Below are positions 1,328 through 18,845 of a stretch of DNA of 44,225 nucleotides, piece by piece. The notes under the pieces are model-generated. The model was not told where the DNA came from and did no database searches. It worked only from the letters and a program-made list of their open reading frames with translations. The translations under genes were made by a program, and so were the position numbers. The DNA comes from an uncultured Lachnospiraceae bacterium (GTDB taxonomy: Bacteria > Bacillota > Clostridia > Lachnospirales > Lachnospiraceae): NCBI GenBank assembly GCA_944380065.1, contig CALWGM010000023.1, positions 1 through 44,225 of the forward strand. The letters run 5' to 3'. Each line of letters begins with the position of its first letter. Positions within the stretch are counted from its first letter, which is position 1.

Positions 1328-1369
1328 GGATAACGGGAGGATTTCACTCACGAAATCCTCCCGTTATCC
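1328..1369 (-). terminator. Long hairpin overlapping the stop codon of the last ABC gene
   Basis: A perfect 18-bp inverted repeat (1328-1345 with 1352-1369) closes a 6-base loop. Read on the minus strand, the 5' arm encodes the last six residues of the ABC exporter and its TGA stop (1348-1350) lies in the loop. There is no clear U tract directly after the stem, so it may be a 3'-end stabiliser or a termination signal of the long heme operon. Confidence 0.6.
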
Positions 1370-3063
1370 ATCTCCACGACAACATCTGCCGCCCGCATCG
1401 TTGATTTCCGGTGCGACACCAGCACCACCGTCTTATCCCCTCTTTCTTCGTTTAAAGACTTCAGGATCATCCCTTCATTCAGGGAGTCCAGATTGCTGGT
1501 AGGCTCATCCATCAGAATCAGCGGCGCATCGTGCAGGAACGCCCGGGCAATACCGATTCTCTGTTTTTCCCCTCCGGAGAGCGTGTCTCCCAGCTCCCCC
1601 ACCTCTGTGTCATATCCTTTGGGAAGGCTCATGATAAATGCATGGACAGACGCTTTTTTCGCCGCCTCCATAATCTCCTCCCGGGAAGCCCCCGGCCTGC
1701 CCACTGCAATATTATTGGCGATGGAATCATGGAACAGGCAGGTTTCCTGTGTCACATAAGATTCCATCTCCCGCAGGTTGGCCGTATTGATCTTCCTCAC
1801 ATCCCTGCCGGAAATGCAGACCGTTCCGCCCTGCACGTCCCAGAAACGCATCAGCAGTTTCAGAAACGTGGACTTTCCGGAACCACTGGCTCCATGGATA
1901 CCGACAATCTGGCCGCGGGGAATCCGGATGGAAAAATCCTTTAAAATCTGCTCTTCTTCATAGGCAAAATCCACGTGCTCCGCCTGCGCGTCTGAAAAAG
2001 AAACCGTTTTCTCCCCGCTCACCTCTTCCACCTGCGGTGTTTCTTCCAATATGGAAAGCACTCGTTCCCCGCTGGCCAGAGTCTGGTTCAGGTTGTTGGC
2101 CAGATTCGCCAGCGCCGTCACCGGACCAAAGGAGCCCATCATGGCAATGGTTCCCACCAGCATCCCTGTCAGGCTGACCATTCCCGCCTGCCGCTGCAGG
2201 ATCATCAGAAACAGCATGGCAAAAGAAAACAGCAGGATCGCCAAATTCGTGACCGAGCGCTGTGCGCCTTCCAGACGGCTGAGATCCTTTTGCAGGCCGC
2301 CCAGCTGACGGGAACGCTCCGCCATTTCTTTCCGCCTTTTCTCTCCCTGCCCGTACTGAACCGTCTCATCCAGCCCCCGCAGGGAATCCAGGATAAAACT
2401 GTTCAGATCCCCGAAGGCGCTGCGGAACTCCATGCCTCTTCGCGCGCCGCGCCTTCCGAAAAACAGGGGGATGACAGCTCCTACCGTCAGATAACCCGCC
2501 AGCGCCAGCAGAGCAGCCGCCACAGAAAATTGTCCCAGAAACAGAATCAGGATCAGGGAAGTCACCACCGCGATGGCAATGGGCGAGATGGTATGCGCAT
2601 AAAATACTTCCAGCAGTTCTATATCCGTTGTGAGCACGGAGATCAGATTTCCTTTCTCTCTGCCGTCCAACTTTGCCGGACAGAGCTTCCTCAGCGCTGC
2701 AAAAACCTTGTGCCGGATGATCGCCAGCAGCTTAAATGCAATATAATGATTACAGTACTGTTCTCCATAGTGCAAAAATCCCCGAGCCACCGCTATCACC
2801 GCCAGCAGGATGAATATCTGCGGCACCCCTCCTGTCAGGATATGCATCACGCCAAGTCCGGCCAGGATGGTCAGAAAGATAGCGCACAGATAGCCAGCGG
2901 TTCCCAGCACAATCGCTAAAAGCATCACCGGAAGCAGCGGCTTTACCAGCCCGATCAGCTGCCCCATGATGCGGATTCCACTTCTTCGGGTCTGCCCGCG
3001 TCCGTTTTCCGCGCCGCTTCCTGTCCCGGCAAAAACGGCTCCCCGGTTCTGTTCCCCGCTCAT
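1348..3063 (-). CDS. ABC transporter half-fusion (membrane domain plus ATPase), second of a pair
   Basis: A 571-residue type IV ABC protein: an N-terminal membrane domain with about six hydrophobic segments (roughly 30-320) and a C-terminal ATPase. The ATPase has Walker A 'GASGSGKST', Q-loop 'YVTQETCLFHD', signature 'LSGGEKQR', Walker B plus catalytic Glu 'LILMDEPTSNLD' and the switch His in 'VLVSHRKST'. The organisation resembles CydC/CydD or other heterodimeric exporters. Its ATG overlaps the stop of the preceding gene by 4 bases (ATGA), so the two products are very likely made together and pair. As the last gene of the heme operon it may move heme, a porphyrin or a thiol; the substrate is unknown. 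Confidence 0.85.
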   Translation of the reverse strand: MSGEQNRGAVFAGTGSGAENGRGQTRRSGIRIMGQLIGLVKPLLPVMLLAIVLGTAGYLCAIFLTILAGLGVMHILTGGVPQIFILLAVIAVARGFLHYGEQYCNHYIAFKLLAIIRHKVFAALRKLCPAKLDGREKGNLISVLTTDIELLEVFYAHTISPIAIAVVTSLILILFLGQFSVAAALLALAGYLTVGAVIPLFFGRRGARRGMEFRSAFGDLNSFILDSLRGLDETVQYGQGEKRRKEMAERSRQLGGLQKDLSRLEGAQRSVTNLAILLFSFAMLFLMILQRQAGMVSLTGMLVGTIAMMGSFGPVTALANLANNLNQTLASGERVLSILEETPQVEEVSGEKTVSFSDAQAEHVDFAYEEEQILKDFSIRIPRGQIVGIHGASGSGKSTFLKLLMRFWDVQGGTVCISGRDVRKINTANLREMESYVTQETCLFHDSIANNIAVGRPGASREEIMEAAKKASVHAFIMSLPKGYDTEVGELGDTLSGGEKQRIGIARAFLHDAPLILMDEPTSNLDSLNEGMILKSLNEERGDKTVVLVSHRKSTMRAADVVVEMDNGRIS

Positions 3064-4889
3064 TCTGCAGCCTCCTTCCTCTTTCCTGTCGCCCGCACCA
3101 CTTTCTCACGCTCTGATTCCGTATCCTCCTGCGTTTCTGCCCCTGCTTTCCCGCTGATATCCCCGGCTCTTCCATAATTCTCCAGCTCCATCTGGGCCTG
3201 ATACAGTCTTGCATACGCCCCGTTCTGTTCCATCAGCTGTCCGTGAGTGCCGGTTTCCATGATCCTCCCCTCCTGCATCATATAAATCCTGTCAGAGTGA
3301 ACCACATTGGCCAGACGGTGTGAAATCAGGAGAACTGTTTTCTTTTTCGCCAGTGAATGAATCACTTCCATGATCATCTCCTCACTCTCCGCATCGATAT
3401 TGCTGGTAGCCTCATCAAAAATATAGACCGGGGTATCATGCAAAAGCGCCCGGGCAATGGCCAGACGCTGACGCTGGCCGCCGGAGAAATTCGCGCCGTT
3501 CTCCAGCACCGGAGTCCGAAGCCCCTGCTGCGCCTCTAAAAAAGCCAGCAGGTTCACCTGTGCCAGCGCATCCCGCATCTGCGCCTGCGAGGCTTCCGGA
3601 TCACCCATCCGCAGATTTTCCTCCACCGTTCCCCGGAACAGGTAGCTGTTATGGCTGACCAGTGTGATCTGCGCCATCAGACAATCCTCCCGGATCCGCG
3701 ACAGTTCCTTTCCCTGTACCGTTACATGGCCGCTGTACCCTTTGTTCCTTCCCATCAAAATAGCCGCAGCCGTACTTTTTCCACAGCCGGAGGTTCCTAC
3801 AATCGACGTGAAACTGCCCGCCGGGAACGCCATGCTGACCCCCTTCAGGATCTCACGCTCCGGCTCATAGGAAAAATGAACATCCGCAAAACAGATTTCT
3901 TCCCGCTTCAGATCCAGCCCCTCCGTCATTTCCTCCGGTTCCGGCAAATCCAGAAGGGCAAAGATTTTATCGCTGGCCGCCATCCCGTTCATGGCAATAT
4001 GGAAGAATGACCCCAAAAGACGCAGGGGAATAAAAAACTCCGCCGCCAAAAGGATCAGCATCAGGGTTCCCTGGATACTCAAAACTCCTCTGGCAAACTC
4101 TGTCAGCGCAACAATCATCCCCACAGCCGCGCCGCCATAAGCAATGATATCCATCACACTGGTAGAATTCAGCTGCATCGTCAATACCTTCATGGTAATC
4201 CGCCGGAAACGCTGCGCCTCCTGATCCATTTCCTCCGCCTTGTTCTGGTCAGCCTGATAAATTTTCAGGGTGGTCAGCCCCTGCAGATTTTCTAAAAAGC
4301 TGTCGCCCAGTTCTGTATAGATTCCCCAGTATTTACCCAAAAGCTTTTTGGCAAACTTCTGAACCGCCACAATAGAAAGCGGAATCAGCGGAACACAGAG
4401 CAACAGCACCAGGCTGGCTTTCCAGCTCACAAAGGACAGAACCACAAACAGCGTGACCGGAGCCAGCAGGCTGTAAAACAGCTGGGAAAGGTATTTTCCG
4501 AAATAGGTTTCCAGCTGCTCCACGCCCTCCGCCGCCATCTGTACCACCTGCGAGGTACTGACCTTTTCCCTGTAGGACGCCCCTAATTTCAGAAGCTTCT
4601 GATAGATGCGGTCCCGCAGGATCCGTTTCACATCCACACTGGCGCGGTAAGAAGCCCTGACCGCTCCCCGGTCACAGACAAAACGCAGGATCAGCGCCGC
4701 AGCTAAAATCCCCGGATAACGCGCCGCCATCGCAGCCGTCACCTGACCGTTCAGCGCCTGCTCCAGCAGACAGGCCGCACACCAGATCATCACAATCTGG
4801 CAGATCAGCGCCGCCCACTGCCATGCCACCTGATAAAAGACATACTTTTTTGCATGGGCCAGCAGATGTACAAGCCTTTTTCTGATCAC
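3060..4889 (-). CDS. ABC transporter half-fusion, first of a pair (GTG start)
   Basis: A 609-residue membrane-plus-ATPase fusion. The ATPase shows Walker A 'GTSGCGKST', signature 'FSGGQRQR', Walker B '[11 protein letters not shown]' and switch 'LLISHR'; about 40 acidic and charged residues follow at the C terminus. The start is set at a GTG (4889) that overlaps the stop of the DUF454 gene and has GGAGG 6 bases before it; a longer reading from 4988 would run through the DUF454 gene in another frame and has no such site. With the next gene it should form a heterodimer. The CydCD/thiol exporter class and heme or siderophore half-transporters look alike at this level, so the cargo is not assigned. 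Position in the operon argues for a heme-linked job. Confidence 0.85.
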
Positions 4890-5326
4890 AGGTTTCCTCC
4901 TTCCCGCGCCGTGGCCTCCCCCGCCTGCGCATCCGGTTCGCCCGGCTTTACGGTTTTGACTCTCACAAAAAAGTACAGCAGATGACATACCCAGACAACC
5001 GCCAGACAGATCCGTCCGATGGGAACCTCTTTCATCAGGATAAAACCGATGGCCATCACCACGGTAACGGTTCCCACAATTTTCAGCTTTGTTCCAATGG
5101 TCATGGCGCGCTTTTTCACAAAACTGTCCAGATGCTTCTGATACATCCTGGTTCCCACAAACCAGTCATGGAGCTTCTGTGAACTTCTGGTAAAGGCAAA
5201 CAGCGCCACTAAGAAAAACGGCACAGTAGGCAAAATCGGCAATACGATCCCCACCGTCCCCAGCCCCAGACACAAAAGTCCCAGGATCAGCCAGAAAATC
5301 CGGAATGGATTCTTTTTCTTATTCAT
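4886..5326 (-). CDS. DUF454 / YbaN-family inner-membrane protein
   Basis: A 146-residue membrane protein. The N-terminal segment '[20 protein letters not shown]' (about 9-28) followed by '[14 protein letters not shown]' and the later '[19 protein letters not shown]' is the DUF454 (YbaN) pattern; two further hydrophobic segments lie at about 80-120. The C-terminal 25 residues are polar. No biochemical role is established for this family, though members are often found by heme and respiratory genes. It sits 76 bases after the heme-type ATPase gene, behind a stable hairpin, and its stop overlaps the GTG of the ABC gene. The ribosome site is weak. Confidence 0.85.
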
Positions 5327-5402: not shown

Positions 5403-6188
5403 TCACACCGTCAGCACAAATTTTTTCCCTTCTATCGTCGTCACATGCAGGGAGATCCCGTACAGTTCCCGGATACATTCGCTGTCAATGATCTCCTCCG
5501 GAACCCCGGCCGCCGCCACATGTCCGTCCTTCAGCCCGATGATCCGGTCAGAAAAATGGATCGCCTGGTTCATATCGTGGAGCACCATAATGATGGTGAT
5601 CCCATACTCCCGGTTCAGTTTCTGCACCAGTTCCAGGATCTCGATCTGATAACGGATATCCAGATACGTCGTGGGCTCGTCCAAAAACAGAATTTTCGTG
5701 TTCTGCGCCAGCGCCATGGCGATCCATACCCGCTGCCGCTGACCGCCGGAGAGGCGGCTGACCTCCCGGCTCCGGTATTTGGCGATATTCGTCACCTCCA
5801 TCGCCCATTCCACCAGCTTTTCATCCTCGCTGCTTCGGGCATGCATCATCCTCCGGTGCGGGGTGCGGCCGAAGGATACCAGCTGTTCCACCGTAACATC
5901 GTCCGCCGACGTGTTATACTGATGGACGATAGAAACCTGCTTCGCAAATTCCCGCAGCGTCAGGTTCTGGATATTTTTCCCCCGCAGAAAAATGTTCCCT
6001 TTCCGCGGATACAGATTTTTCGTCATCAGGTTGAACAGTGTGGATTTTCCGCAGCCGTTCGCTCCCATGATGGTAGTGATTTTCCCTTCTTCAACCGTAA
6101 GGGAAATATCCTGAAGCACCCTGTTTTTCCCGTAGGCGAACGAAAGATTCCGCACCTCCATCGCCGGTTTTTCCCTGTCACGCTGCAT
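5403..6188 (-). CDS. Heme/siderophore ABC importer ATPase (HtsC/FecE-type)
   Basis: A 261-residue cytoplasmic ATPase of the FecE/FhuC/BtuD class that powers uptake of iron compounds. Visible motifs are Walker A 'GANGCGKST' (about 39-47), Q-loop 'VHQYN', signature 'LSGGQRQR', Walker B '[12 protein letters not shown]' (the 'TTYLD' form is typical of iron-siderophore ATPases) and switch 'VLHDMNQA'. Its start overlaps the end of the permease gene by 11 bases. The order lipoprotein, permease, ATPase directly after Shp matches the streptococcal shp-htsABC arrangement, so heme is the likely cargo. Start at the first ATG is favoured by an upstream AGGAGG, at a slightly long spacing. Confidence 0.92.
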
Positions 6189-7188
6189 ATTTCTTCGACC
6201 TCCTTAACAGAATGATGAAGAATGGCCCGCCGATCACACTCATGATAATGGACGCTGACACTTCATAAGGCGCGGCCACCGTCCGGCCAACCGTATCGGC
6301 CAGCAGAAACGTCAAAGCTCCGGCCAGCATGGAAAACGGGATCAGCGCCCGGTGATCACTGCCTACTAAAATTCTTCCCATATGGGGCACGATCAGCCCC
6401 AGAAAACTGATGGCCCCCACAACGGCCGTAGAAATGCTGGCCAGCAGCACCGCGATCACAGAGATCCAGATCCGCATCAGGTTTACATTGACCCCCAGAC
6501 TTCGGGCAGTCTTGTCCTCCAACGCCATCAGATTACAGGTCCTGGTAAACAAGAGCGCCAGGATCAGCCCCACGATCACATAGGGCAAAAGCGTATGTAC
6601 ATCATCCCAGGTTTTCTGTGTAATGTTTCCCTCCACGATCGACGCCACGCCGGAAGAGCTTCCCCCTGACATGGAATTCAGGGCTTCGGAAAGCCCGGTG
6701 AACATGGCGCTGACCGCCACGCCGGTGAGAATGATCCGCAGCGGACTCAGTCCTCCCTTCCACGACAGGCTGTACACGAAGAAAAACGCCAGAATGCCTC
6801 CCGCAAACGCAAACAGCGGAGTGAAAAAATACAGCGCCGGAAGAAAGGCTGTGATCAGGACGGCCAGAAAACCGGCGCCGCTGGAAATACCAATGATGCC
6901 CGGATCTGCCAGCGGATTTTTCAGCACCGCCTGGAACAGCACCCCGGAAACCGCCACTGCGGCTCCCGCAAACAATGAGATCACGATCCGCGGGAAACGC
7001 AGGTCATAGATGGCTGTCACCTCGTCGCTGGGTTCAAGAAACAGTCCCCGGAACAGTTCCGGAAAAGAAACCTTCAGGCTCCCCACATTGACCGAAATAA
7101 AAATCATCACGACCAGCAGCACGCCCACAGCGGCAAAAGAAACCGCCGCCCGGGCAGCCTTCCGTTTTGTCCTGTTTTCTTCCTCCAT
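6178..7188 (-). CDS. FecCD-family permease, probable heme importer (HtsB-like)
   Basis: A 336-residue integral membrane protein of the FecCD/BtuC family, the usual length. It has about 9-10 hydrophobic segments and family landmarks: 'LRFPRIVISLFAGAAVAVSG' near residues 63-82, 'NPLADPGIIGISSGAG' near 91-106, and 'GAISFLGLIVPHMGR' near 262-276, which forms the loop contacting the ATPase. GGAGG lies 7 bases before the ATG, and the gene starts 12 bases after the lipoprotein gene. It forms a dimer as the membrane channel of the importer. Heme rather than another chelate is inferred from the neighbours. Confidence 0.92.
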   Translation of the reverse strand: MEEENRTKRKAARAAVSFAAVGVLLVVMIFISVNVGSLKVSFPELFRGLFLEPSDEVTAIYDLRFPRIVISLFAGAAVAVSGVLFQAVLKNPLADPGIIGISSGAGFLAVLITAFLPALYFFTPLFAFAGGILAFFFVYSLSWKGGLSPLRIILTGVAVSAMFTGLSEALNSMSGGSSSGVASIVEGNITQKTWDDVHTLLPYVIVGLILALLFTRTCNLMALEDKTARSLGVNVNLMRIWISVIAVLLASISTAVVGAISFLGLIVPHMGRILVGSDHRALIPFSMLAGALTFLLADTVGRTVAAPYEVSASIIMSVIGGPFFIILLRRSKKYAA

Positions 7189-7200
7189 GATCCGTCCTCC

Positions 7201-8328
7201 TTATTTTGTGATTTCCTGCAGTGTCTCTTCGTCTGTTTTTTCGGATGCCTGGCTTTCCCTGGCTGCCTGCGCCGCCCGGTCGCTGTTTTCCTTTGCTTCC
7301 TCCGCCCCATCTTCCGATTCCGGATAAAGCATGGGCCGCAGCTCCTCCAGCGCCTGGGGATAATTAAAATCCGCGCTCATACCAAAATATTCGTAGGTCA
7401 GGTCATAGACCCTTCCGTTTTTCACCGCATCAAAATGCTGCCAGATATCGTCCGTGGCAAATTCTTCCTGAAACATCTCAATGATCTGATCCGGCAGGGC
7501 ATGGGCCGCCCGGAGAATCACATCCGGCTCCTTCGTTTTCATATCTTCCGTATTCACAGTCAGAAATTCCTGGTCTGTCCCGGCGTAAACGTTCTCGCCG
7601 CCGGCCAGTTCCACCAGGCTCCCCACATAGGAATTTTCCGTGGCGATGATGTAGCTTCCCGGAAGTCCCATCAGAATCAACACCCGCGGGGCTTCTTTTC
7701 CCTCATTCTGATCCTGATATTCCTCATAAAAGGCAGTGAATTCGTCCACCATGGCCTGCGCCTGTTCTTCTCTGCCGAAAATCTCCCCTAATTCCTGGAT
7801 GGAGCGGTACATGCCCTGGACGCTCCGCAGGTTCAGAAACGCCCAGTCCGTATCGATGGCCTCGTATTTGGGCTGCAGGTCGGACTGCAGGGTATCCGGG
7901 CTTAAAATCCAGTCCGGATCCAGGGAGGCCACGATCTCCATATCCGGCGCCATAGCCGTCCCTACCGTCTCCGCATCCGCATAGCGTTCCGGCAGTTCGG
8001 AAATAGTGCTGGAACACACGCCTGCCAGGTCAAGTTCCAGGCGATCGCAGATTTCCACAGTGGAAGGGGAGGTAGCTATGATTTTCGGCTCCGTCCCCAG
8101 AGCCTGCACCTTTTTCTTCGCCGCCTCCACAGCAGCCTTTTCCTCCGGGTCTGTGATCTCTATCATCAGTTCCACACTCCGATCTGCTGTCCCGGCTTCC
8201 CCGTCCGCAGAACCTCCGCCGGAGCTTTCCGAATGGACTGCACAGCCGGACAGGGAAGCGCCAGACAGCGCCGCGCACAGCAGGATCGCCAAAATCCCCG
8301 CTTTCTTTTTCCTGCTTTTACTCATCAT
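7201..8328 (-). CDS. Heme-binding lipoprotein of the ABC importer (HtsA/IsdE-like)
   Basis: About 375 residues, a class III periplasmic-binding-like protein anchored as a lipoprotein. The signal peptide ends in the lipobox 'LSGC' near residue 30. The core shows 'TVEICDRLELDLAGV' (about 92-106), a Met-bearing stretch 'AMAPDMEIVASLDPDW' and later 'ILRAAHALP', positions reminiscent of the Met and His heme ligands of IsdE and HtsA, and 'FNYPQALEELRPML' near the end of the fold. A 45-residue tail rich in Glu, Ala and Lys follows. Several ATG codons are possible; the one at 8328 sits 8 bases after GGAGG. The gene overlaps the end of shp by 11 bases, supporting transfer of heme from Shp. Confidence 0.88.
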   Translation of the reverse strand: MMSKSRKKKAGILAILLCAALSGASLSGCAVHSESSGGGSADGEAGTADRSVELMIEITDPEEKAAVEAAKKKVQALGTEPKIIATSPSTVEICDRLELDLAGVCSSTISELPERYADAETVGTAMAPDMEIVASLDPDWILSPDTLQSDLQPKYEAIDTDWAFLNLRSVQGMYRSIQELGEIFGREEQAQAMVDEFTAFYEEYQDQNEGKEAPRVLILMGLPGSYIIATENSYVGSLVELAGGENVYAGTDQEFLTVNTEDMKTKEPDVILRAAHALPDQIIEMFQEEFATDDIWQHFDAVKNGRVYDLTYEYFGMSADFNYPQALEELRPMLYPESEDGAEEAKENSDRAAQAARESQASEKTDEETLQEITK

Positions 8329-9334
8329 CCTCATATCCTCCGCCCCAGCGCTTCCAGTTTTTCCGGAAGAAATAAACGATAACGGCTGCCGCAGCCATCA
8401 AAATCAGACCGGATACGGTCACAGCCGCGCCGATGGCAAACGCCCGGTTTCCGCCGGACGCGGCCTGTGTTTCTCCCCCGGCTTCCGCTTCTGTGGACAG
8501 GCTCAATCCCTGCGCATCGCTTAATTCTCCGTCTGTATCTGCCGACGCCGCCGGCGCTGCCGCCTCCTCAATGGAACTGGTCAGGGCAGGCGTTTCTGCC
8601 TGGGTATCTTCACCGGAATCCTCACTGTCTCCTGCGGATCCGGCTGCCGGAAGCGCAGAATTCCCCTGCAGGGAAGAACCTCCCGCTGTGGAACCGGAGC
8701 CGGAATTTCCGGAATCCGCTGTATTGTCTGCTGCAGCATTTCCGCCTGCCGACGCGCTATTTTCACTTCCGGACGCAGATGTCACAATGGTTGCGTTCAT
8801 ATCCGTATTATTTCCCGCAGTGTAATCACTGGGATACAGATAAAAAATCACATCCCGCCCCATAGGTTCCACATACATGGACCCCCGCACAATACAGTTT
8901 TCACTGGGCACCTGGATGCAGACGTCCGCTGTCGATCCGTTATTGTCCGAACCGTTCCCCGTCACTCCCACAGCCGGGGCTGACCAGCCGGAATCTCCCA
9001 CATTCTGTACCCAGAAGCTGTGGCCGGAGGTCTGATCCATCAGGCTCAGGCGGACGGTGAGATAATATTCCCCGCTGTCCGTCAGTTCCAGAATACCGGT
9101 GGAGTAAACTGTACCTTCCACCATTCCCTGTCCGGTGGCATAATTTCCCGCTCCCGCGGAATCCTCGATTTCCCCGGTTACCGGATGGGCATAGCAGGGA
9201 TGGATCACACAGGTGTATACATTTCCGCTGGCCGCCTGCGCGGGCACAGCGCCCGCTGCGATTATTGCAATCAGGACTGCTGCTGCCGTAACAAGTCCGG
9301 CCAACACCTTTTTCACGATTTTCTCTGTTTTCAT
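8318..9334 (-). CDS. shp: Shp-like cell-surface heme-binding protein
   Basis: About 338 residues. After a signal peptide ending at 'AQAASG', the 'HPVTGEIEDS', 'GQGMVEGTVYSTG' and 'RGSMYVEPMGRDVIFY' stretches match, by memory, the heme-binding domain of Streptococcus pyogenes Shp, which holds heme through two methionines; methionines are present at both places here. A Ser/Gly/Glu-rich linker of about 120 residues follows, then a C-terminal membrane span and a charged tail. There is no sortase motif. An odd point is a Cys-x4-Cys pair ('CVIHPC') at the start of the domain. The start is placed at an ATG 6 bases after GGGAG. It should accept heme from surface NEAT proteins and pass it to the lipoprotein next door. 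Confidence 0.9.
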   Translation of the reverse strand: MKTEKIVKKVLAGLVTAAAVLIAIIAAGAVPAQAASGNVYTCVIHPCYAHPVTGEIEDSAGAGNYATGQGMVEGTVYSTGILELTDSGEYYLTVRLSLMDQTSGHSFWVQNVGDSGWSAPAVGVTGNGSDNNGSTADVCIQVPSENCIVRGSMYVEPMGRDVIFYLYPSDYTAGNNTDMNATIVTSASGSENSASAGGNAAADNTADSGNSGSGSTAGGSSLQGNSALPAAGSAGDSEDSGEDTQAETPALTSSIEEAAAPAASADTDGELSDAQGLSLSTEAEAGGETQAASGGNRAFAIGAAVTVSGLILMAAAAVIVYFFRKNWKRWGGGYEDDE

Positions 9335-9400
9335 TCTTTTCTCCCGAACCACGGGAAGGAGCCGCAGTTTACCAGCAGCCCCTTCCCGCATGATGAAAAA

Positions 9401-11620
9401 TTATATTGCTCTGCCGGATTTCTTCTTCCGCAAAATTCCTGCTGCACAGGCCGCGCCTCCGGCTGCAAAAAGAATTGCCCAGACCGCCATGTTTCCTGAC
9501 ACATCCCCGGTCTTCACTTTGGAAAGACTGTTTCCCAGCGAACTGCCGCCCAGGGAATTCCCTCCCAGAGAATTCTGACCCAGGCTGCTTCCGCCGGGAA
9601 GGCTGGAACCGCCATTCAGGCTGCTGCCTCCATTCAGACCGCTTCCGCCGCCGTTTCCATCGTCACCGCCCGGAACTGTCCCCGGTTCATTGTCATCCGT
9701 AAAGGAAGGATCGTCCTCCTCTGTGGCTTTCAGCGTATCCCAGTCAAGGGCAAGATACACGGACTGCTGCCCGATCCCCTCCGCAATGGACTCCATCAGG
9801 GGCACGAACACCTGCAGGGGCGCATAGCCGTCCTCCAGAGCCTCCGGGATCAGTTCAAAAGTAACCTGATCCGGATAATCCGTCCCGTAATCGTCGCTGA
9901 CACGGCTTCCATCCGCGTTCAGCTGGTAGGACTCAATGACTGCGTCGGCCAGTTCGCCCTGCGGATTGCCATAGGAATCCTGCGTATAGCCTGTGAGGAA
10001 ATACTTCAGACCTCCCAGATATCCCAGCTGGCCGTTTAAATCCAGCCCCTTCAGATCCAGGGTAATGTAATATTTTCCGTCCTTCACCGTCAGTTTTACC
10101 GTATGGTTGATCGCGTTGTCCGACATGGACAGCGTTGTTTTGTCCGGCTTTACCATATTTCCCGTCAGGGAATACACGCCGTCTTCCAGATGAAAAATAT
10201 CCAGATCCGTATCTCCTGGATTTTCCGGGTTTGCCGGGTCATCCGGTTCTGTCGGATCGTCCGGATCCGACGGGTCGTCCGGGTCTGTGGTCTGGCTGCC
10301 GCCGCAGGTGATGGTGAACGTCGTCGTTCCGGTGTAATTTCCCGGAGCCGCAGCCGCCACATCTTCGCCCGCGATGATAATATTTCCGGAGAGAACCGCC
10401 TCCTGTCCTTCTGTCTCCGCCTGTCTCACAGCGTCTGCCTGGAAGCTCTGCGTGCCAAAGTCATTGGCAAACGGCAGTTCCTGTTCGCCGCTGAAAAGCA
10501 TTCCTTCTTCCGGCGCGCTTACTGTCACCGTTCCCTGTCGATCCGCAGAAGAAATCCGGATCTCATAAGGCTGGATATTGTCGGCGGCAGAATTCAGTTT
10601 TCCCATCGACAGGGAAGAGGGCACCGATACTTCACAGGAAGGCGAAGAGATCTCTTCCTTTACGTCGGCTGTGATCTCCATGCTCTGGCTGGTCTCTTCC
10701 CCGGATCCCTGAGCGCCCTGTCTCTGCAGGGTATCCCAGTACATGGTTACGATGGTTTTGACGCTGAATTTCCCGTTTTCAAAATGAATCCCGCTGATTT
10801 CCCCGTTCAGGTTTCCCATGGCAGGGACATAGATGGTGGTATTGTTATAGTAATACTGGCTGAGTCCCTGCAGCGGGAAGGTCACATCCGTCACAACTGT
10901 ATAATCGTTTCTCTCCTCTGTGCTGTATGTGACGCCTTCTGTCAGCAGTTCCTGATCCGGGTCATTGTCTTTGTAATATCCGTTAAATCCCAGGATATAC
11001 ATGGGCTCCTGATCCGTTCCCGACACCATGGTGTAGGAAAGACTCATCTGACCCGACGCATCCACGGTCAGCACAGCATCCGCTGTTTCTGTCTGCACCA
11101 GGCTGTGATCCACCACATCGCTGCGTACAGCCACTGTAATATCGTAGGTCCCCGGTTCCGGGATTTCATCCGGTACGCCCGCCGGCGTATCCTCCGCCAG
11201 TTCCAGACCCAGCGCGTTGGCCACCGCTTCACGGATTCCCTCCGACGTATAGGTGGCCCCGGACACGGCGTCAACTGCCCGGATCCCTTCCGCGTCGTCA
11301 TCCGCAAGGCCTAAAAACCGGTCGCGCATTCCCTCGATGGCAGAGGCCAGCTTCCCTTTATTGACCTCCGCGTAGGTGCCTCCGAAATTCGCCCCTGTGA
11401 TCTCCAAATCGGTGATCTTTCCATCTGTGACAGTCACATCCGCGCTGATATCGTACTCACCGAACTGGTCGATATGGAACGTACCGTTTTTGGTGTAAGA
11501 CCCGGAAGCCGGCAGCGCCGATGCTGCCTGAATCTGTGCCGCCGGCGCCGCCATACCTGTCAGAAGAACGCCCGTCAGGAGCAGCACTCCCCATCTTTTC
11601 TTCCTTCTATTTTTTTTCAT
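9401..11620 (-). CDS. Surface protein with FMN-binding (flavinylation) domain and NEAT-like heme domains
   Basis: A 739-residue secreted protein. A signal peptide (1-33) is followed by an FMN-binding domain (about 40-140) carrying 'DAVSGATYTS', the flavinylation motif in which ApbE attaches FMN to a threonine, probably Thr125. A NEAT-like domain (about 155-298, ending 'YWDTL'), a beta-rich domain (about 313-440) shared with the next gene upstream, an Asp/Pro linker, a second NEAT-like domain (about 475-645, with 'LSMSDNAI' and 'VYLALDWDTL') and a Gly/Ser/Leu-rich stalk follow. 'VKTGD' at 702, a hydrophobic segment and 'RKKK' end it, a sortase-like anchor. GGAGG precedes the ATG. A flavin beside heme domains suggests electron transfer to bound heme. 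No apbE gene lies in the window. Confidence 0.8.
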   Translation of the reverse strand: MKKNRRKKRWGVLLLTGVLLTGMAAPAAQIQAASALPASGSYTKNGTFHIDQFGEYDISADVTVTDGKITDLEITGANFGGTYAEVNKGKLASAIEGMRDRFLGLADDDAEGIRAVDAVSGATYTSEGIREAVANALGLELAEDTPAGVPDEIPEPGTYDITVAVRSDVVDHSLVQTETADAVLTVDASGQMSLSYTMVSGTDQEPMYILGFNGYYKDNDPDQELLTEGVTYSTEERNDYTVVTDVTFPLQGLSQYYYNNTTIYVPAMGNLNGEISGIHFENGKFSVKTIVTMYWDTLQRQGAQGSGEETSQSMEITADVKEEISSPSCEVSVPSSLSMGKLNSAADNIQPYEIRISSADRQGTVTVSAPEEGMLFSGEQELPFANDFGTQSFQADAVRQAETEGQEAVLSGNIIIAGEDVAAAAPGNYTGTTTFTITCGGSQTTDPDDPSDPDDPTEPDDPANPENPGDTDLDIFHLEDGVYSLTGNMVKPDKTTLSMSDNAINHTVKLTVKDGKYYITLDLKGLDLNGQLGYLGGLKYFLTGYTQDSYGNPQGELADAVIESYQLNADGSRVSDDYGTDYPDQVTFELIPEALEDGYAPLQVFVPLMESIAEGIGQQSVYLALDWDTLKATEEDDPSFTDDNEPGTVPGGDDGNGGGSGLNGGSSLNGGSSLPGGSSLGQNSLGGNSLGGSSLGNSLSKVKTGDVSGNMAVWAILFAAGGAACAAGILRKKKSGRAI

Positions 11621-11650: not shown

Positions 11651-12607
11651 CTACTGTACCGCGTAAGAAATGGAGAAGGTAGTGGTTCCGGTGTAGTTGC
11701 CTGCCGCTGCGGCTGCTACCGCTTCAGCTGTGATGCTGATGGATCCGGAAAGTTCCTGCGCATCTGCAGACTCGTTTGCTGTCTTAGTACCAAAATCATT
11801 CGTAAATGCCAGCTTGTTACCTTCTGCGTCTGTCAGTTCCCCAGCATCAGGAGCTGTTACCGTAAGGGTTCCCCCGTTCAGATCAGAAGCAGTTACATCT
11901 ACGGTATAATTCATGATATTCTCCTTATCTGCATCCAGGGTTCCCATGGATACGGCAGACGGAACACTTACCATATAAGAAGGTGCTGACGGTGTATCGC
12001 TGATTTCTGCGGAAATCTGCATATCATGCGTCTCTGTCTCTTCCGGCTGACCCGGTTCCGCCGTCGGGTCTGCCTGCAGGTCGGTCACCTGCACAAAGAA
12101 ATTCTGAGTAGAATTCATAACTACATTCACATAAGCGCTGGCGGAAACAGTCCCTGCCTCCAGGTCATCCAGCACATCCCGGGGAAGTTCCACCGTCAGC
12201 ACCTGGGTCGGAAGCACATCCCCCGCGCTGATGCCGAACAACGCCGCATCGGTATCAAACTCTTTTTCCAGCTTTGTGGTAATGTCCGATTCTGCCGCAT
12301 ACTCCGTTCCATCCACCGTGAGTACCACATCTTTGACGGTTCCGTCCGCTCCCTGATCGGGGAAGCTCGGAATCGGATACGCCACATAGAAGGTCAGCTC
12401 TGCACTCTCCTCCGTCAGGGTTACCTCCGCCTCATGGCAGAAGATCGGATCGCACATACTGTTGTTTCCGCTTCCATTGGCATTCAGGAAATGGATCTCC
12501 CCTGTGTAGTCTCCGTCTGCCGGTTCTGCCGCAAACGCGGTGCCGCACATCATAGCTGCTATCATTGCCGCCGCAACGGCTCCTGCTGTCATTTTTTTCA
12601 GTCTCAT
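11651..12607 (-). CDS. Secreted NEAT-like protein, possible hemophore
   Basis: A 318-residue protein with a signal peptide cleaved near 'AFAAEP' (about 26). Residues 30-185 look NEAT-like: it opens 'DGDYTGEIHFLNANG', has the Ser-Met found in the heme-pocket helix of NEAT domains ('NNSMCDPIFC'), and ends in strands 'NVVMNSTQNFFVQVTDL'; the usual ligand tyrosine appears replaced by Phe. Residues 195-318 repeat the beta-rich domain of the FMN/NEAT protein, sharing 'FTNDFGT'-like and 'GNYTGTTTF' stretches. There is no membrane span, sortase motif or lipobox, so it may be released or held by partners. AAAGGAG lies 8 bases before the ATG, and the gene is about 30 bases upstream of the FMN/NEAT gene. 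Confidence 0.7.
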   Translation of the reverse strand: MRLKKMTAGAVAAAMIAAMMCGTAFAAEPADGDYTGEIHFLNANGSGNNSMCDPIFCHEAEVTLTEESAELTFYVAYPIPSFPDQGADGTVKDVVLTVDGTEYAAESDITTKLEKEFDTDAALFGISAGDVLPTQVLTVELPRDVLDDLEAGTVSASAYVNVVMNSTQNFFVQVTDLQADPTAEPGQPEETETHDMQISAEISDTPSAPSYMVSVPSAVSMGTLDADKENIMNYTVDVTASDLNGGTLTVTAPDAGELTDAEGNKLAFTNDFGTKTANESADAQELSGSISITAEAVAAAAAGNYTGTTTFSISYAVQ

Positions 12608-12709: not shown

Positions 12710-13216
12710 TCATCCCTGCTGCCTCACGATCAGTGTGCAGCTGACGTCCGCCCCGTTCTGCGGCGCCATCGCCTCGTCCGCCGTAAAGGTCGCATATTTC
12801 ACCGTCAGCGGATACTCGCCTGCTTCCATCTCCCGCTCCAGCGTAATGTCATAGAGATGCTGCCCCGGACGGATCAGGTCAGAAGTGTAGATCGTCTCAT
12901 CCGTATCCGGCAGGTAAAAGGAAATCTGGAAGTAAACCTCATTTTCTTCCGGGTTCATCAGTTCCACGGAGACGTCCTTCGTCCCGGCCGGGATCACGAT
13001 CGAGTCATAGCCCGGGATCTGGATCCCTTCATCCACCGATCCTTCCTGGTCTTTGTCATCCGGTTTTTCCTGATCCTCCTCGAAAGCCACATCGGAATTG
13101 GTGACCTCCCCGGGCTGGCGGCTCCGGTAAACAGCAATACCGGAAGCCGCCGCAGCGACTGCAAGGATCACGATCAGTATGATCAGTTTTTTCTTTTTTC
13201 TGTCCATCGCCTGCAT
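12710..13216 (-). CDS. Membrane-anchored protein with extracellular beta-sandwich domain, unknown function
   Basis: I do not know a function. The chosen start (ATG 13216) overlaps the TAA of the large NEAT/LRR gene by one base (TAATG) and gives 168 residues. A basic start 'MDRKKKKL', one membrane span (about 10-30), an acidic linker and an extracellular beta-rich domain are visible: 'IQIPGYDSIVIPAGTKDVSV', 'NPEENEVYFQISFYLPDTDE', 'YTSDLIRPGQHLYDITL'. Similar small anchored proteins accompany many Gram-positive surface protein genes. Coupling to the NEAT/LRR gene suggests help in surface display or heme transfer. A longer reading upstream would overlap the large gene and is not favoured. Confidence 0.7.
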   Translation of the reverse strand: MQAMDRKKKKLIILIVILAVAAAASGIAVYRSRQPGEVTNSDVAFEEDQEKPDDKDQEGSVDEGIQIPGYDSIVIPAGTKDVSVELMNPEENEVYFQISFYLPDTDETIYTSDLIRPGQHLYDITLEREMEAGEYPLTVKYATFTADEAMAPQNGADVSCTLIVRQQG

Positions 13217-16200
13217 TACTTCTCTTCTCTGCGTTTTCTCTGCGCCGCTGTTCCTGCCGCCAGGGCTGCGCCTCCAAGAGCTGCCACACTCCACAGGACT
13301 GCCGCGGAAGGATCACCAGTCTTCACGCTCTTATTCAGGCTGGTGTGCCCGCCATCCTGGTCTGTACCGGATGTCGGATCTTTTCCATCATCAGAAAGAT
13401 TCTGTCCGCCCTGGCTGCCGCCGGAAGGATTCTCCGGTGCGGTATCGTCCGGGTTCTCCGGCTTCGTATCATCCGGGCTCTCCGGTTTCGTATCGTCCGG
13501 ATTCTCCGGTTTCGTATCGTCCGGGTTCTCCGGTGTCGTATCGTCCGGGTTCTCCGGCTTCGTATCATCCGGATTCTCCGGCTCCACATCCGCGCTCATC
13601 TGGAACAGTTCTACCGCTTTCTGCAGATCTGACGCTGCTACCTGAAGTTCTCCTGCATCGGTGCTGTTTTCCAGATAATATTCCGCAAGGCTGATGGCAT
13701 TCTGCAGAATCAGCCACGCAGTATCCGTCTTATTTCCCTGTTCCACCGCCTTTGCCGCGTCGATCGCTTCCTGAAGGGCTGCTTTCTCTGCATCCACAGA
13801 TATCTGGCCGCCTTCTGTCGTTACTTCATTGGATACGGCGGTAAATTTGTAGTCCAGGTTTCCGTAGGTGCTGGCGTACAGCGTCTTTACAACCCGGTAT
13901 GTGCCGTCTTCCTCCGGTGCGTAACTTCCGGACACCGCATCCGCCTGATCATTCTCATAGCTCCGGGAAACGGAAACGAAATGACCGTCCGCGTCTTTTT
14001 TCTGGATCTCCGTCCAGATCTGCCAGTCGTACCCCTTTTCATCCATAAAGGAAACCAGATCTCCATCGGTCAGCCCCTCGCGCTCCAGCAGCGCCCGGTA
14101 ATCCTCCACACTGGTGATCTCATCATCCGTGTAAGAACTGGTGGCGTCATACCAGTACTGAAGATCCAGAACCGTCAGATCCTGGCTCCACTCCAGACGG
14201 TCTCCATTCTCTTGCATCGTCAGGTTCAGGTCAGTCAGCTGCGGATAAATCTTTCTGTCTCCCACCAAAGCCTTTACCTCGTCGTCCACCGACGCCAGCA
14301 GATTCATCTGCAGATCCAGCGTCCACATGGAAATCCCTTCCGGGAGAATATCAGCGGAAAAACCGGTCAGGCAGTTGTTATAAAGCTTTAAGGTGGATAA
14401 TTCTGTATTCGCCGCAAATGTACCGGATTTGATCTCCCGGATCTGGTTGGAACCCAGATCCACCTGGGAAAGGCTGGCCAGGTTTTCAAAATTCACATTC
14501 CCGACAGACGCAAGCTGATTGCGCGCTGCCGTCAGCCAGCTTAAATTCTCCATCTTCCCAACGGAAGCAGGCAGCGAAGTCAGTTGATTGTCATCCAGCG
14601 TCAGGAATGTTACATTTCTCAACGAATCAAATACCTGATCCGGGAGAGCCGTCAGCTGGTTGCCATTCAGCGCCAGCGATGCAAGCGCATCCAGACCTTC
14701 AAAAGTATCCTCCTCTACAGAGGCAATCGCGTTGTTTCCAAGATCAAGTTCGGTCGCTGCAGTCAGCCCGGTGAAGTCCCCGGCCTCCAGAGAAGGAATC
14801 AGATTGGAGGACAGGTTGACCCACGTCAGTTTCTCGTTATTTTTGAAAAACCCTTCCGGGATTCCGCCGATCAGGTTGCTGGACGCATAGAATGTCTCTA
14901 AGTTGACCAGATTGTCCAGCATCCCTTCCGGAAGCACTTCAATTTTATTTCCGGTCAGGTCGATACTGGTTACTTTATCCGAAAGATTGGTCAAAAGACT
15001 GATGTCCGTCAGCTCCTGATAACTCAGATCCAGCGGGCCTTCAATCGCCTGGATTTCCTCCGGGCTCATCTCGCCATCCCCGTTTAAATCATATCCCTTA
15101 TCGCAGAGGGCTTTTACCAGCTTCGCTCTGCCGTCCGCTCCTTCCGGCTGATCGATTTCATACTGATAGCCTTCCCATCCTTTCCGGATATCTTCTCCAA
15201 ACGTGAGATCCAGCTTGGTATATTTTTCGTAATTTCCCTTATCGCTGATCTGTCCGCCCATAGCTGTTACCAGAACAGCGCCTTTGTGCATGACAGAAAG
15301 ATCTTCGATCGGCATGGTAAACTCCTGCATGGAATAATTTCCCGAAGCGTCGGCGGTTCCGATATACTTCTGCTCCGACTGCGGATATTCCCCATTGGAT
15401 TCGATACTGAAATCCAGCAGCGCCCATACCAGCGCCGTGTTCATCATGGAGATGGTCATCTTACCGTCTTTGACTGTCAGTTTCACCCGGGGATCAAACG
15501 CGCCCTGCAGCATGGAAGATTCTTCCATTCCCTCCTGGTTTGCCACAAAAGACAGGGTATATTCGCCGTCCTCCAGGTGATCCACGTCAATCTCGCCGCC
15601 CGGTTCCGTGGTCTGGCTTCCCTGGAATGTCTCAATCGCCTGGGTCAGCGCATTCACTGCCTGCGTCACCGCATCTGCGGAATCTGCCGTTTCAGCAGCT
15701 TCCTTTGCCGCAGCAATGGCGTCCTGCAGCGCCTGCCACGCCTCATCGCTTTTATCCCCCTGTGTTATCGCTTCCGCCTCTGCGATCTTATCCATCAGGG
15801 CTGTCTGATCCACCGTGTCGCCGCCCGGAACCTGGGTGCCGGAAGCCGAATCCTCCTGTGATACAAACGTAAAGGTATCCCCGGATTTTGTGAACACGAT
15901 GGTTTTATCCCCGTATCCCTCCGCGCTGACAACTACGGTATTCTCGCCTTCCTGAATAGCGCCGTCATAAATACGGAGGCCATTGGCCGAAACCTCCCAC
16001 GAATAGGGAATCTTTGCGTCATCCTCATAAACATCATAATACCAGCTGTATGCCTGTCCGTTGACGGACACGCCGGTAATTGCATTTGCGTAATTCACAT
16101 CCGCCTCTGCTTCCGCATACTTACTGATATCCGGAAACTGTACGCCGCCGGGACCGTCCCCCCAGGGAGTATATACCTCCACGCCGGTTACCTGTGTGCC

Positions 16201-16848
16201 TGCCGGAAGTCCCCCGCCGCCCGGTTCATCTCCCGGCTCCTGGTCTTCCTCAATCTTCACTGCCTCCAGGCTGTCCCAGTCCACGGCGATCAGAACTCCC
16301 GTCGCCCCCATTCCCATCGAAGTCATCACGGGAACATCCACCTGGCACCTTATGTAGCCTTCCTGATCCCCTGCATTTTTATTCAGCAGCGGCAGCTCCA
16401 GCGTCTCCGGATACAGATAGTCCGCCGTTCCGTCTTTGTCCGCGTCATTATAGTCATCCACAATCTCTTCATAGCTGGATAACACCTCTGCCTTCCGGTA
16501 AGCACTGCCGTCCCAGTAGGACAGGCTCTTCAGATACCCGGTCAACGGCCCTATGGCCATTCCTTTGAATCCCACCTGCAGATAGTAACTGCCGTCTCTG
16601 ACAAACAGTGATGCCTGCGGCTCCACCGCATTATTCGCCATGGAAGGGTTTGCCGGATTAGAAGCATTCCGCAGGCCGATTTTTACCGAATACTCCCCGT
16701 CCTTCAGGTTTGCCGGATCCAGCCCCTCCGCGATTTCTGTCTGCACGGCCGCCGGCGCTGCCGCCAATGCCATCCCTGCCGTCTGTGGCACGCACATGCT
16801 CACAACCAAAGCTGCGGCCAGAAATTTAATAACAAGTTTGTTCTTCAT
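13216..16848 (-). CDS. Shr-like surface hemoprotein receptor (NEAT, DUF1533-like, FIVAR, NEAT, LRR, FIVAR)
   Basis: A 1210-residue wall protein with a signal peptide (1-30). In order: NEAT-like domain (about 48-200, 'PSMANNAV'...'AVDWDSL'); a DUF1533-like domain (about 215-325, 'YANAITGVSVNGQAY', 'GENTVVVSAEGYGDKTI'), the type that binds hemoglobin in streptococcal Shr; a FIVAR helical domain (about 347-410); a second NEAT-like domain (about 423-560) with a possible ligand Tyr; an EF-hand-like 'DLNGDGEMSPEE' (about 587-598); leucine-rich repeats (about 605-880); a second FIVAR (about 1020-1085); six 8-residue PENPDDTK-type repeats; 'VKTGD' at 1175, a membrane span and 'KRREEK'. It contains the modules of Shr in another order. 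Role: capture of hemoglobin or heme. Confidence 0.85.
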   Translation of the reverse strand: MKNKLVIKFLAAALVVSMCVPQTAGMALAAAPAAVQTEIAEGLDPANLKDGEYSVKIGLRNASNPANPSMANNAVEPQASLFVRDGSYYLQVGFKGMAIGPLTGYLKSLSYWDGSAYRKAEVLSSYEEIVDDYNDADKDGTADYLYPETLELPLLNKNAGDQEGYIRCQVDVPVMTSMGMGATGVLIAVDWDSLEAVKIEEDQEPGDEPGGGGLPAGTQVTGVEVYTPWGDGPGGVQFPDISKYAEAEADVNYANAITGVSVNGQAYSWYYDVYEDDAKIPYSWEVSANGLRIYDGAIQEGENTVVVSAEGYGDKTIVFTKSGDTFTFVSQEDSASGTQVPGGDTVDQTALMDKIAEAEAITQGDKSDEAWQALQDAIAAAKEAAETADSADAVTQAVNALTQAIETFQGSQTTEPGGEIDVDHLEDGEYTLSFVANQEGMEESSMLQGAFDPRVKLTVKDGKMTISMMNTALVWALLDFSIESNGEYPQSEQKYIGTADASGNYSMQEFTMPIEDLSVMHKGAVLVTAMGGQISDKGNYEKYTKLDLTFGEDIRKGWEGYQYEIDQPEGADGRAKLVKALCDKGYDLNGDGEMSPEEIQAIEGPLDLSYQELTDISLLTNLSDKVTSIDLTGNKIEVLPEGMLDNLVNLETFYASSNLIGGIPEGFFKNNEKLTWVNLSSNLIPSLEAGDFTGLTAATELDLGNNAIASVEEDTFEGLDALASLALNGNQLTALPDQVFDSLRNVTFLTLDDNQLTSLPASVGKMENLSWLTAARNQLASVGNVNFENLASLSQVDLGSNQIREIKSGTFAANTELSTLKLYNNCLTGFSADILPEGISMWTLDLQMNLLASVDDEVKALVGDRKIYPQLTDLNLTMQENGDRLEWSQDLTVLDLQYWYDATSSYTDDEITSVEDYRALLEREGLTDGDLVSFMDEKGYDWQIWTEIQKKDADGHFVSVSRSYENDQADAVSGSYAPEEDGTYRVVKTLYASTYGNLDYKFTAVSNEVTTEGGQISVDAEKAALQEAIDAAKAVEQGNKTDTAWLILQNAISLAEYYLENSTDAGELQVAASDLQKAVELFQMSADVEPENPDDTKPENPDDTTPENPDDTKPENPDDTKPESPDDTKPENPDDTAPENPSGGSQGGQNLSDDGKDPTSGTDQDGGHTSLNKSVKTGDPSAAVLWSVAALGGAALAAGTAAQRKRREEK
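13430..13583 (-). repeat. 24-bp tandem repeat coding for Pro/Asp-rich stalk
   Basis: Six copies of a 24-bp unit, plus a partial one, encode PENPDDTK and close variants (TT, PES, TA). Copies differ mostly at silent or single positions. It lies between the second FIVAR domain and the wall anchor, the place where wall-spanning stalks vary in length. Confidence 0.9.
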
Positions 16849-16899: not shown

Positions 16900-16929
16900 A
16901 GTCTACCATCACGATTTTCTGCCTGTCAA
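16900..16929 (-). promoter_or_regulatory. Promoter of the heme operon at the Shr-like gene
   Basis: On the minus strand a perfect TTGACA (complement of 16924-16929) is followed after 18 bases by TAGACT (complement of 16900-16905). The gene starts at 16848, about 45 bases after the expected transcription start. Confidence 0.6.
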
Positions 16930-17045: not shown

Positions 17046-17879
17046 TCACAGCCAGAAAACCAGTCGTGCCGTGCTCTCCGGCATATGGATCCTCCCCACG
17101 CTGCAGGTGGCGGTCACAAACACATGGCCGCAGATGCCCCCGCCCTGCATGATGCGGATCTGGCAGGCCTCCAGCGGGATCCGCATCTTTCCCTGGCTTT
17201 TCCTGGCCAGATGCAGTATCCCGTCCTGCTCGTACTTCAGGGTCTCCAGGTACCCGGTCATCTCCTCCCCTTCCACCGGCGACCAGGCTCTCATCTCACA
17301 GGGCTCCAGCTCCAGCCAGCTCCCCCGCTTATTGCGGCGGATGACGGCCGGTTTCCGGAATCCCCGGTTCGCCATGGAAATCTCATTCCCTTTTCTCATC
17401 TGGAAAACCATGAAAAAGACTTCATGGCTGCCGTAATCCAGAATTTCCTTCAGCGGATTCCCCGCCGGCTGTCTGCCCGGCTCTCCATTTACAAAATGAT
17501 CCTGCTGATTCCGCAGATAACGCGCCATGATGGACAGGGTATGATAATCCACATGTTCGATCAGGCGCCTGACATTTTCCCCGATCTCTCCGGCCGGTAC
17601 CCCCGCCCTGCGCAGAAAAAGCGGGATATCCTCCCGCAGTTTCCCATAACCCCGAAGCCAGATTTTTCCTTTTCCTGTCAGCTGCAGATCCTCTGTCAGG
17701 ATCCCGTTCTCCCGGCAGAGTTTAAAATAACGGCTCACGGAGCTGTGATTTGCCCCACAGTTCTCCGCAATCGCCGCGATACAGCCCCGGCCGCCTCCCA
17801 GACGCTCCAATTCCTCCAAAAAATTCAGCATCTGCACCGTAGGCAGCCCGTCCCTCTTAAAATTCTCTCCCTTCGCCAT
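17046..17879 (-). CDS. DtxR-like regulator with C-terminal extension, metal site altered
   Basis: A 277-residue protein. Residues 10-70 form a winged helix ('IAAIAENCGANHSSVSRYFK'), and 'FLRRAGVPAGEIGENVRRLI' followed by 'EHV' (about 88-112) matches the dimerisation helix of DtxR/MntR proteins. In DtxR the primary metal site reads Cys-x2-Glu-His; here the Glu-His remains but the Cys position holds Arg. The remaining 130 residues are not an SH3-like DtxR tail; they are beta-rich ('LELEPCEMRAWSPVEGEEMT') and I do not recognise them. The gene follows a second DtxR-like gene by about 100 bases and precedes the Shr-like gene. AAAGGAG lies 9 bases before the ATG. It probably controls heme uptake with its partner. 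Confidence 0.7.
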   Translation of the reverse strand: MAKGENFKRDGLPTVQMLNFLEELERLGGGRGCIAAIAENCGANHSSVSRYFKLCRENGILTEDLQLTGKGKIWLRGYGKLREDIPLFLRRAGVPAGEIGENVRRLIEHVDYHTLSIMARYLRNQQDHFVNGEPGRQPAGNPLKEILDYGSHEVFFMVFQMRKGNEISMANRGFRKPAVIRRNKRGSWLELEPCEMRAWSPVEGEEMTGYLETLKYEQDGILHLARKSQGKMRIPLEACQIRIMQGGGICGHVFVTATCSVGRIHMPESTARLVFWL

Positions 17880-18827: not shown

Positions 18828-18845
18828 AGTCACCACTTCCTGTAA

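Follow-up and report, generated by a model that had tools for sequence, protein, structure and literature searches.

Heme chains of NEAT proteins are generally regarded as passive and driven by affinity, and among the closest described counterparts of the locus analyzed here is the Shr–Shp–HtsABC relay of Streptococcus pyogenes. To our knowledge, streptococcal Shr lacks an FMN domain, and such a relay can therefore run without FMN. The heme ligands of Shr NEAT2 are Met997 and Met1107 (PMC12796733). According to this structure paper, neutral Met may coordinate either iron state (PMC12796733), and isolated Shr contains both ferric and ferrous heme (PMC2266757). When heme is transferred in vitro among Shr NEAT domains and Shp, the receptors end mostly ferric (PMC12796733), and reduction is thus unnecessary for transfer as such. 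Two further systems bear on the locus. FMN_bind proteins flavinylated by ApbE are extracytosolic and include proteins associated with P19 iron uptake (PMC8238504); the potential reported for one flavinylated FMN protein, SaFMN3, is -184 mV (PMC10339131). In Bacteroides, the de-chelatase HmuS serves anaerobic iron harvest from heme, and HmuS-bound heme is reduced by NADH (PMC12583661).

We analyzed a stretch of 44,225 nucleotides (the window) from an uncultured Lachnospiraceae bacterium, in which an Shr-like protein, Shp and a heme ABC importer are encoded together. The order on the minus strand is two regulators, the Shr-like gene, genes for 194-, 318- and 739-amino acid (aa) proteins, Shp, HtsA/IsdE, HtsB, HtsC, DUF454 and a CydDC-like pair:

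17982..18836, minus strand: DtxR-type regulator, 284 aa (PF02742, E 1.2e-9)
17046..17879, minus strand: regulator, 277 aa, with a NEAT-like C-terminal domain unmatched by the held-out NEAT profile described below
16900..16929, minus strand: promoter-like site TTGACA-18-TAGACT before the Shr-like gene (consensus match only)
13216..16848, minus strand: Shr-like protein heading the run, NEAT - HID - NEAT - LRR (PF05031, PF07550, LRR)
12710..13294, minus strand: 194-aa protein in which one hydrophobic stretch is visible by eye, also found upstream of the 318-aa gene in relatives
11651..12607, minus strand: 318-aa protein with a NEAT-like domain (residues 27-180, SMCD motif; profile E 1.4e-4) and domain W
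9401..11620, minus strand: 739-aa surface protein, FMN_bind - X (divergent NEAT) - W - NEAT - anchor tail
8318..9391, minus strand: Shp heme-binding protein (PF11545, E 6.6e-59)
7201..8334, minus strand: HtsA/IsdE heme-binding lipoprotein of the ABC importer (TIGR03659, 392.2 bits against a cut-off of 298.65)
6178..7188, minus strand: HtsB permease (FecCD)
5403..6188, minus strand: HtsC ATPase
4886..5326, minus strand: DUF454 membrane protein (PF04304, E 4e-36)
1348..4988, minus strand: CydDC-like ABC exporter pair (3060-4988 and 1348-3063), under the CydD and CydC cut-offs

From the Shr-like gene to HtsC, neighboring genes overlap or have at most about 100 bases between them. Given these short gaps and overlaps, together with promoter-like matches just ahead of the Shr-like gene, this part of the run is likely to be a single operon; promoter consensus sites number 19 in the window, versus 10.2 expected in shuffles. 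The true start of the 194-aa gene is probably downstream of the annotated one. The 318-aa protein had no PF05031 match in Pfam, and the profile that gave its E value of 1.4e-4 contained one related row from locus L028 and none of the 318-aa type. As an initial sequence-only reading of the window had stated, no heme oxygenase is named among the matches listed for its 23 scanned proteins (Pfam/NCBIfam; part at E ≤ 1e-20, and the best 25 families for three ABC ATPases).

NEAT-like C-terminal domains also occur in heme-gene regulators elsewhere (L110:11934-12764, minus strand; L106:3516-4340, plus strand), and no signal peptide was seen by eye in these proteins or in the window's regulator. The L110 and L106 proteins have MarR/DtxR-like N-termini, and their PF05031 matches (E 6.3e-6 and 3.3e-4, respectively) are both under the cut-off. 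The regulators' domain aligned to NEAT in hhalign at 97% over about 70 columns, and the motifs SM(A/G)(N/D) and MP(E/K)S are present in all nine regulator rows (eight distinct). These proteins might act in the cytosol as heme sensors, with two Met residues as ligands.

The sequence-only reading had proposed that the 739-aa product joins a flavin-binding domain to NEAT-like domains. This proposal was borne out by domain searches, in which PF04205 and PF05031 both matched the product above the Pfam cut-offs. Its parts are as follows:

11210..11452, minus strand: FMN_bind domain, residues 57-137 (PF04205, E 1.1e-9), with attachment Thr123 in DAVSGAT
10712..11173, minus strand: domain X, residues 150-303, divergent NEAT, with H172, L174 and M268 conserved
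10295..10699, minus strand: domain W, residues 308-442, common to the 739-aa and 318-aa proteins
9731..10192, minus strand: NEAT domain, residues 477-630, Shr NEAT2 type, with M499 and M609
9404..9520, minus strand: KVKTGD (beginning at residue 701), hydrophobic stretch and KKK tail, resembling a sortase anchor by eye

PF04205 scored 39.2 bits against a cut-off of 22 on residues 57-137, and the motif DAVSGATYTS, with T123 as acceptor, is of the DxxSGAT type; we infer that the protein carries covalent FMN. At the C-terminus, PF05031 scored 43.7 bits on residues 477-527 (cut-off 32.8, E 4.5e-11). Residues 477-630 align without gaps to the solved Shr NEAT2 structure (9w5y, E 3.4e-37), and NEAT2 of streptococcal Shr is the closest relative. 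By offset, its ligands Met997 and Met1107 map to M499 and M609. Both were confirmed in the window, and all 13 aligned rows have them; these comprise 11 of 15 rows plus those of L022 and L023, where that gene lacks the FMN domain. The C-terminal domain is a candidate heme-binding domain. Domain W, which lies between X and NEAT and was absent from the sequence-only description, had no Pfam match above cut-off. FMN_bind and NEAT are both above their cut-offs in L012 and L018 as well, and in L105 and L107 from another family of the same order. The best hit in the homology search was to an uncultured Lachnospiraceae genome, with 74% identity in its top segment. Homologues also turn up in isolate-named records (Eubacterium sp. 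ER2, Lachnoclostridium sp. An118, Blautia sp. An81 and An249), which rules out an error of assembly as the source of the fusion.

The reading we prefer, which we rate as evenly poised, is that covalent FMN on this protein would give electrons to heme on X or on a NEAT neighbor, yielding ferrous heme for the Met-ligated Shr/Shp/Hts relay. The sequence-only reading had expected heme to be handed on to Shp, and the gene does sit within an Shr/Shp/Hts run. It had also envisaged iron being stripped from heme outside the cell, which now appears less likely: the same run encodes a whole-heme importer, and the flavin for that reason most likely acts on heme in transit.

Two NEAT-like domains had been claimed for the 739-aa protein. 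The C-terminal one was upheld by PF05031, but X had no PF05031 match in any of 15 members and could be assigned only by profile-profile comparison. That X is an ordinary NEAT domain was ruled out by this Pfam result, and a first, narrow hhalign comparison with the C-terminal NEAT domain gave only 21%. A wider NEAT profile was therefore grown from the C-terminal NEAT domain, with 33 X domains masked and the Shp and regulator proteins held out; a check of its training rows found that zero X-type rows had entered. Against this X-free profile, 24 X sequences (23 distinct) aligned with 96% probability over 131 columns. Controls with reversed X, FMN, W, HtsA and the 194-aa protein were all at or below 4%, and Shp, which we take to be a NEAT relative, gave 75.5 to 93.8% as the positive control. 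Single-sequence hmmsearch with the X-free profile was weak: in the last round 9 of 33 X domains matched, 2 of them at E < 1e-3, and none did when reversed. The window's own X was outside these nine (E 2.8 with the preceding-round profile). Judged by the profile comparison, X is a divergent NEAT domain. A relationship to DUF2271, another flavinylated domain, was dropped as chance (1 of 15 members, E 0.029).

X departs from the Shr type at the heme ligands. At the first ligand site, Leu is found in 24 of 24 rows, while the second retains Met in 23 of 24; two axial Met residues of the Shr type are thus not found in X. This alignment represents 23 distinct sequences, without the truncated X domains of L111, L021 and L112; a first alignment of 18 rows had left 17 in the FMN-X alignment and 15 in the initial X alignment. 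In a joint NEAT/X alignment built with X included, 24 of the 25 distinct X rows show Leu in the first ligand column and 23 show Met in the second. Of the 150 other NEAT-like rows, 121 have Met in the first column and 88 have it in both; among the remaining 62, 48 are gapped at one or both sites.

Because the first Met is missing, X may not bind heme. It might instead have no heme site and serve to bind or dock hemoglobin, Shp or the flavin, and FMN would then act directly on methemoglobin or on the heme of a partner. The invariant Leu, at a position where most other NEAT-like domains keep Met, is what such a domain might show. However, H172 and M268 are each conserved in 23 of 24 rows, and the sole exception, L026, is changed at both, a pattern that looks like a liganded pocket. 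We consider a docking role for X unlikely and favor the reading in which X, despite the altered site, or its NEAT neighbor may hold heme for the flavin.

The distribution of X across genomes links it to Shp. Samples held one genome per species, evenly drawn, and several of the counts come from draft genomes. In the family, 45 of 299 genomes contain a match to at least part of the 739-aa protein; FMN plus X is present in five, as read from the matched ranges. Among 392 genomes of the order, X is strong in 13 and weak in two (G327 and G463, both Shp carriers and outside the 13), and Shp is found in 34 (33 above cut-off). All 13 strong-X genomes have Shp, compared with 34 of 392 overall. The probability of this overlap by chance is 1.4e-15 if genomes are independent and 2.5e-9 by genus (9 of 9 versus 23 of 174), with relatedness making both values too small. 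X and Shp share a contig, at most about 11 kb apart, in 11 of the 13 genomes; G028 and G589 have them on separate contigs. Sixteen named loci contain an FMN-bearing relative, and Shp is visible in eight of them (L007-L014). It was not seen in the available DNA around the gene in the other eight (L015-L020, L026, L027), several of which are short stretches. In L027, neither Shp nor Hts matched within about 7-10 kb on either side of the FMN-X gene, and in G021, a genome that has the same stretch, Shp and FMN-X are on different contigs.

These data bear on a second alternative, in which the NEAT heme is a cofactor and flavin and heme together make up an electron wire on the surface that leads to an external acceptor, heme uptake being a separate job of the neighbors. 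FMN_bind proteins often serve extracytosolic electron transfer (PMC8238504), and such a wire would accommodate the loci where Shp is not seen and the genomes with Shp on another contig. The proximity of X and Shp in 11 of 13 X genomes speaks against it, as does the C-terminal NEAT domain, which is closest to a heme-transfer domain. An electron wire is quite improbable in our estimation, and we retain the proposal that the flavin reduces heme on its way to Shp.

Several other arrangements of these domains were observed. The 318-aa protein contains SMCD and VVM motifs, and in L027 a domain resembling its NEAT-like part is joined directly to FMN-X. In the second family, proteins containing X reach 2778 aa; each of the three scanned (the 2778-aa protein as two halves) combines FMN_bind with several NEAT domains, and S-layer domains are found in two. 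Second-family loci L107, L109 and L110 have an extra FMN domain with no X after it, and in it TSAT replaces SGAT. In a genome of the window's genus, L061:594-7058 (minus strand) encodes two surface proteins with choline-binding repeats, one with FMN_bind and Tp47, near FMN_bind-like and ApbE-like open reading frames (ORFs) as judged by reading.

Flavin attachment had been assigned to ApbE, and the window's genome (95.68% complete) does have one ApbE match (E 5.3e-90), along with two FMN_bind matches. ApbE is present in 15 of 17 X genomes (missed in G551 and G688), and all 21 Shp genomes lacking a strong X match have it as well. Since genomes of the latter kind carry it too, its presence is uninformative, and we dropped it as support for the reading. 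The second FMN_bind gene has ApbE and an RnfD-type gene within 5 kb; RnfG and the other Rnf names were assigned by ORF reading. An RnfD/NqrB-type gene was found in all 15 X genomes tested, and no dedicated membrane electron donor was recognized in the gene run.

Cytochrome bd subunit I was absent from all 15 X genomes searched. This fits anaerobic hosts and weighs against a role of the flavin in defense against oxygen or peroxide, or in driving heme breakage at the surface with oxygen; the import of whole heme by the run argues in the same direction. Reduced SaFMN3 does react with dioxygen (PMC10339131), and X may leave a coordination site open, but we find an oxygen-linked role very hard to credit beside heme reduction for the relay. 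A chelatase route was likewise considered. CobN (PF02514) had no match in 14 of 15 X genomes, among them the window's, and because it occurs in only one of the 15, G550, such a route is not general; an HmuS-type de-chelatase was rejected as the general route. In G550 (L104:1816-6224, minus strand, and L121), the CobN-type gene (PF02514, E 1e-266) and a ChlI-like ATPase gene sit between the FMN-X-NEAT gene and genes for a NEAT protein, Shp and the heme importer.

The FMN domain directly precedes X in 26 of 28 X proteins, and the other two begin within X at a contig edge (here, as in the acceptor-Thr and ligand-column counts, each repeated row entered only once). Of the 28 FMN rows, 22 have an exact SGAT and six an altered one (TSAT in two, SSAT in two, AGAT in one, TGAT in one); these departures could mark a relic domain without flavin, but the acceptor Thr itself is conserved in 28 of 28 rows across at least two families of the order, making a relic the least credible of the alternatives.

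Under the preferred reading, in which FMN reduces heme in transit, ApbE would attach FMN to Thr123 outside the membrane. The flavin, once reduced, would pass electrons to ferric heme on the adjacent X or on a nearby Met-ligated NEAT domain. The ferrous heme thus produced could be held by the Met-ligated NEAT and Shp sites, which would help heme pass from the Shr-like receptor through Shp to HtsA and the ABC importer. Electrons would probably come from the membrane. Rnf is the leading candidate donor, RnfG being the only other FMN_bind match in the genome. A flavin near -184 mV, the SaFMN3 figure, could plausibly reduce a Met-ligated heme. A more specific proposal, which we offer tentatively as possible rather than probable, is that X is a new kind of NEAT domain serving as the heme reduction site. 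With Leu in place of the first Met and with M268 and H172 kept, X would hold a single-Met or His/Met heme, which the flavin would reduce with electrons supplied by Rnf, and ferrous heme would then move to the bis-Met NEAT domain, Shp and HtsA. If this is correct, the locus would encode a flavin-powered, one-way heme relay on the surface of an anaerobe. A covalent flavin in a NEAT relay would add a powered redox step and couple heme uptake to the membrane electron supply. Such a step could also explain why Met ligands are retained in the relay.

The sequence-only reading knew of no described heme relay with a flavin built into a NEAT protein. Its suggestion that nothing similar is described was too strong, given that the key of abbreviations in the legend to Table S1 of a 2014 NEAT survey names FMN as an additional feature of NEAT proteins (PMC4143258). 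Because of that legend, the FMN/NEAT combination has probably been seen before. FMN occurs nowhere else in the survey's main text. A NEAT review contains no word beginning with flavin (PMC7815599), the main text of a flavinylation survey has neither NEAT nor PF05031 (PMC8238504), and NEAT is absent from PMC11334425. In searches of literature outside bioRxiv and with few subscription papers, we found no paper on an FMN-binding domain together with a NEAT domain, on NEAT domains and heme in Lachnospiraceae, or on flavinylated heme uptake in Lachnospiraceae, and no discussion of the FMN/NEAT combination. What is new here is the link to Shp loci, domain X, its ligand change and the Met series.

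Overall, the locus shares features with several known systems. HmuS resembles it in drawing on heme anaerobically for iron (PMC12583661), and the CobN-type gene of G550 recalls it; the difference is that most X genomes, the window's included, have no CobN match. The legend to Table S1 in the 2014 survey likewise points to NEAT proteins with an FMN feature (PMC4143258). The S. pyogenes relay is matched by an Shr-like protein (NEAT, HID, LRR), Shp and an IsdE/HtsA-type importer in one run, and the bis-Met ligand positions of streptococcal Shr are retained in the C-terminal NEAT domain. The window differs from that relay in that three more proteins are encoded between the Shr-like protein and Shp: another multi-NEAT protein, which carries FMN_bind, along with the NEAT-like 318-aa protein and the 194-aa protein. 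With ApbE-flavinylated FMN_bind proteins, including those associated with P19, the 739-aa protein shares the DxxSGAT motif, a predicted extracytosolic location and a link to iron uptake (PMC8238504). What sets it apart is that its FMN_bind domain is fused to NEAT and lies within a heme locus.
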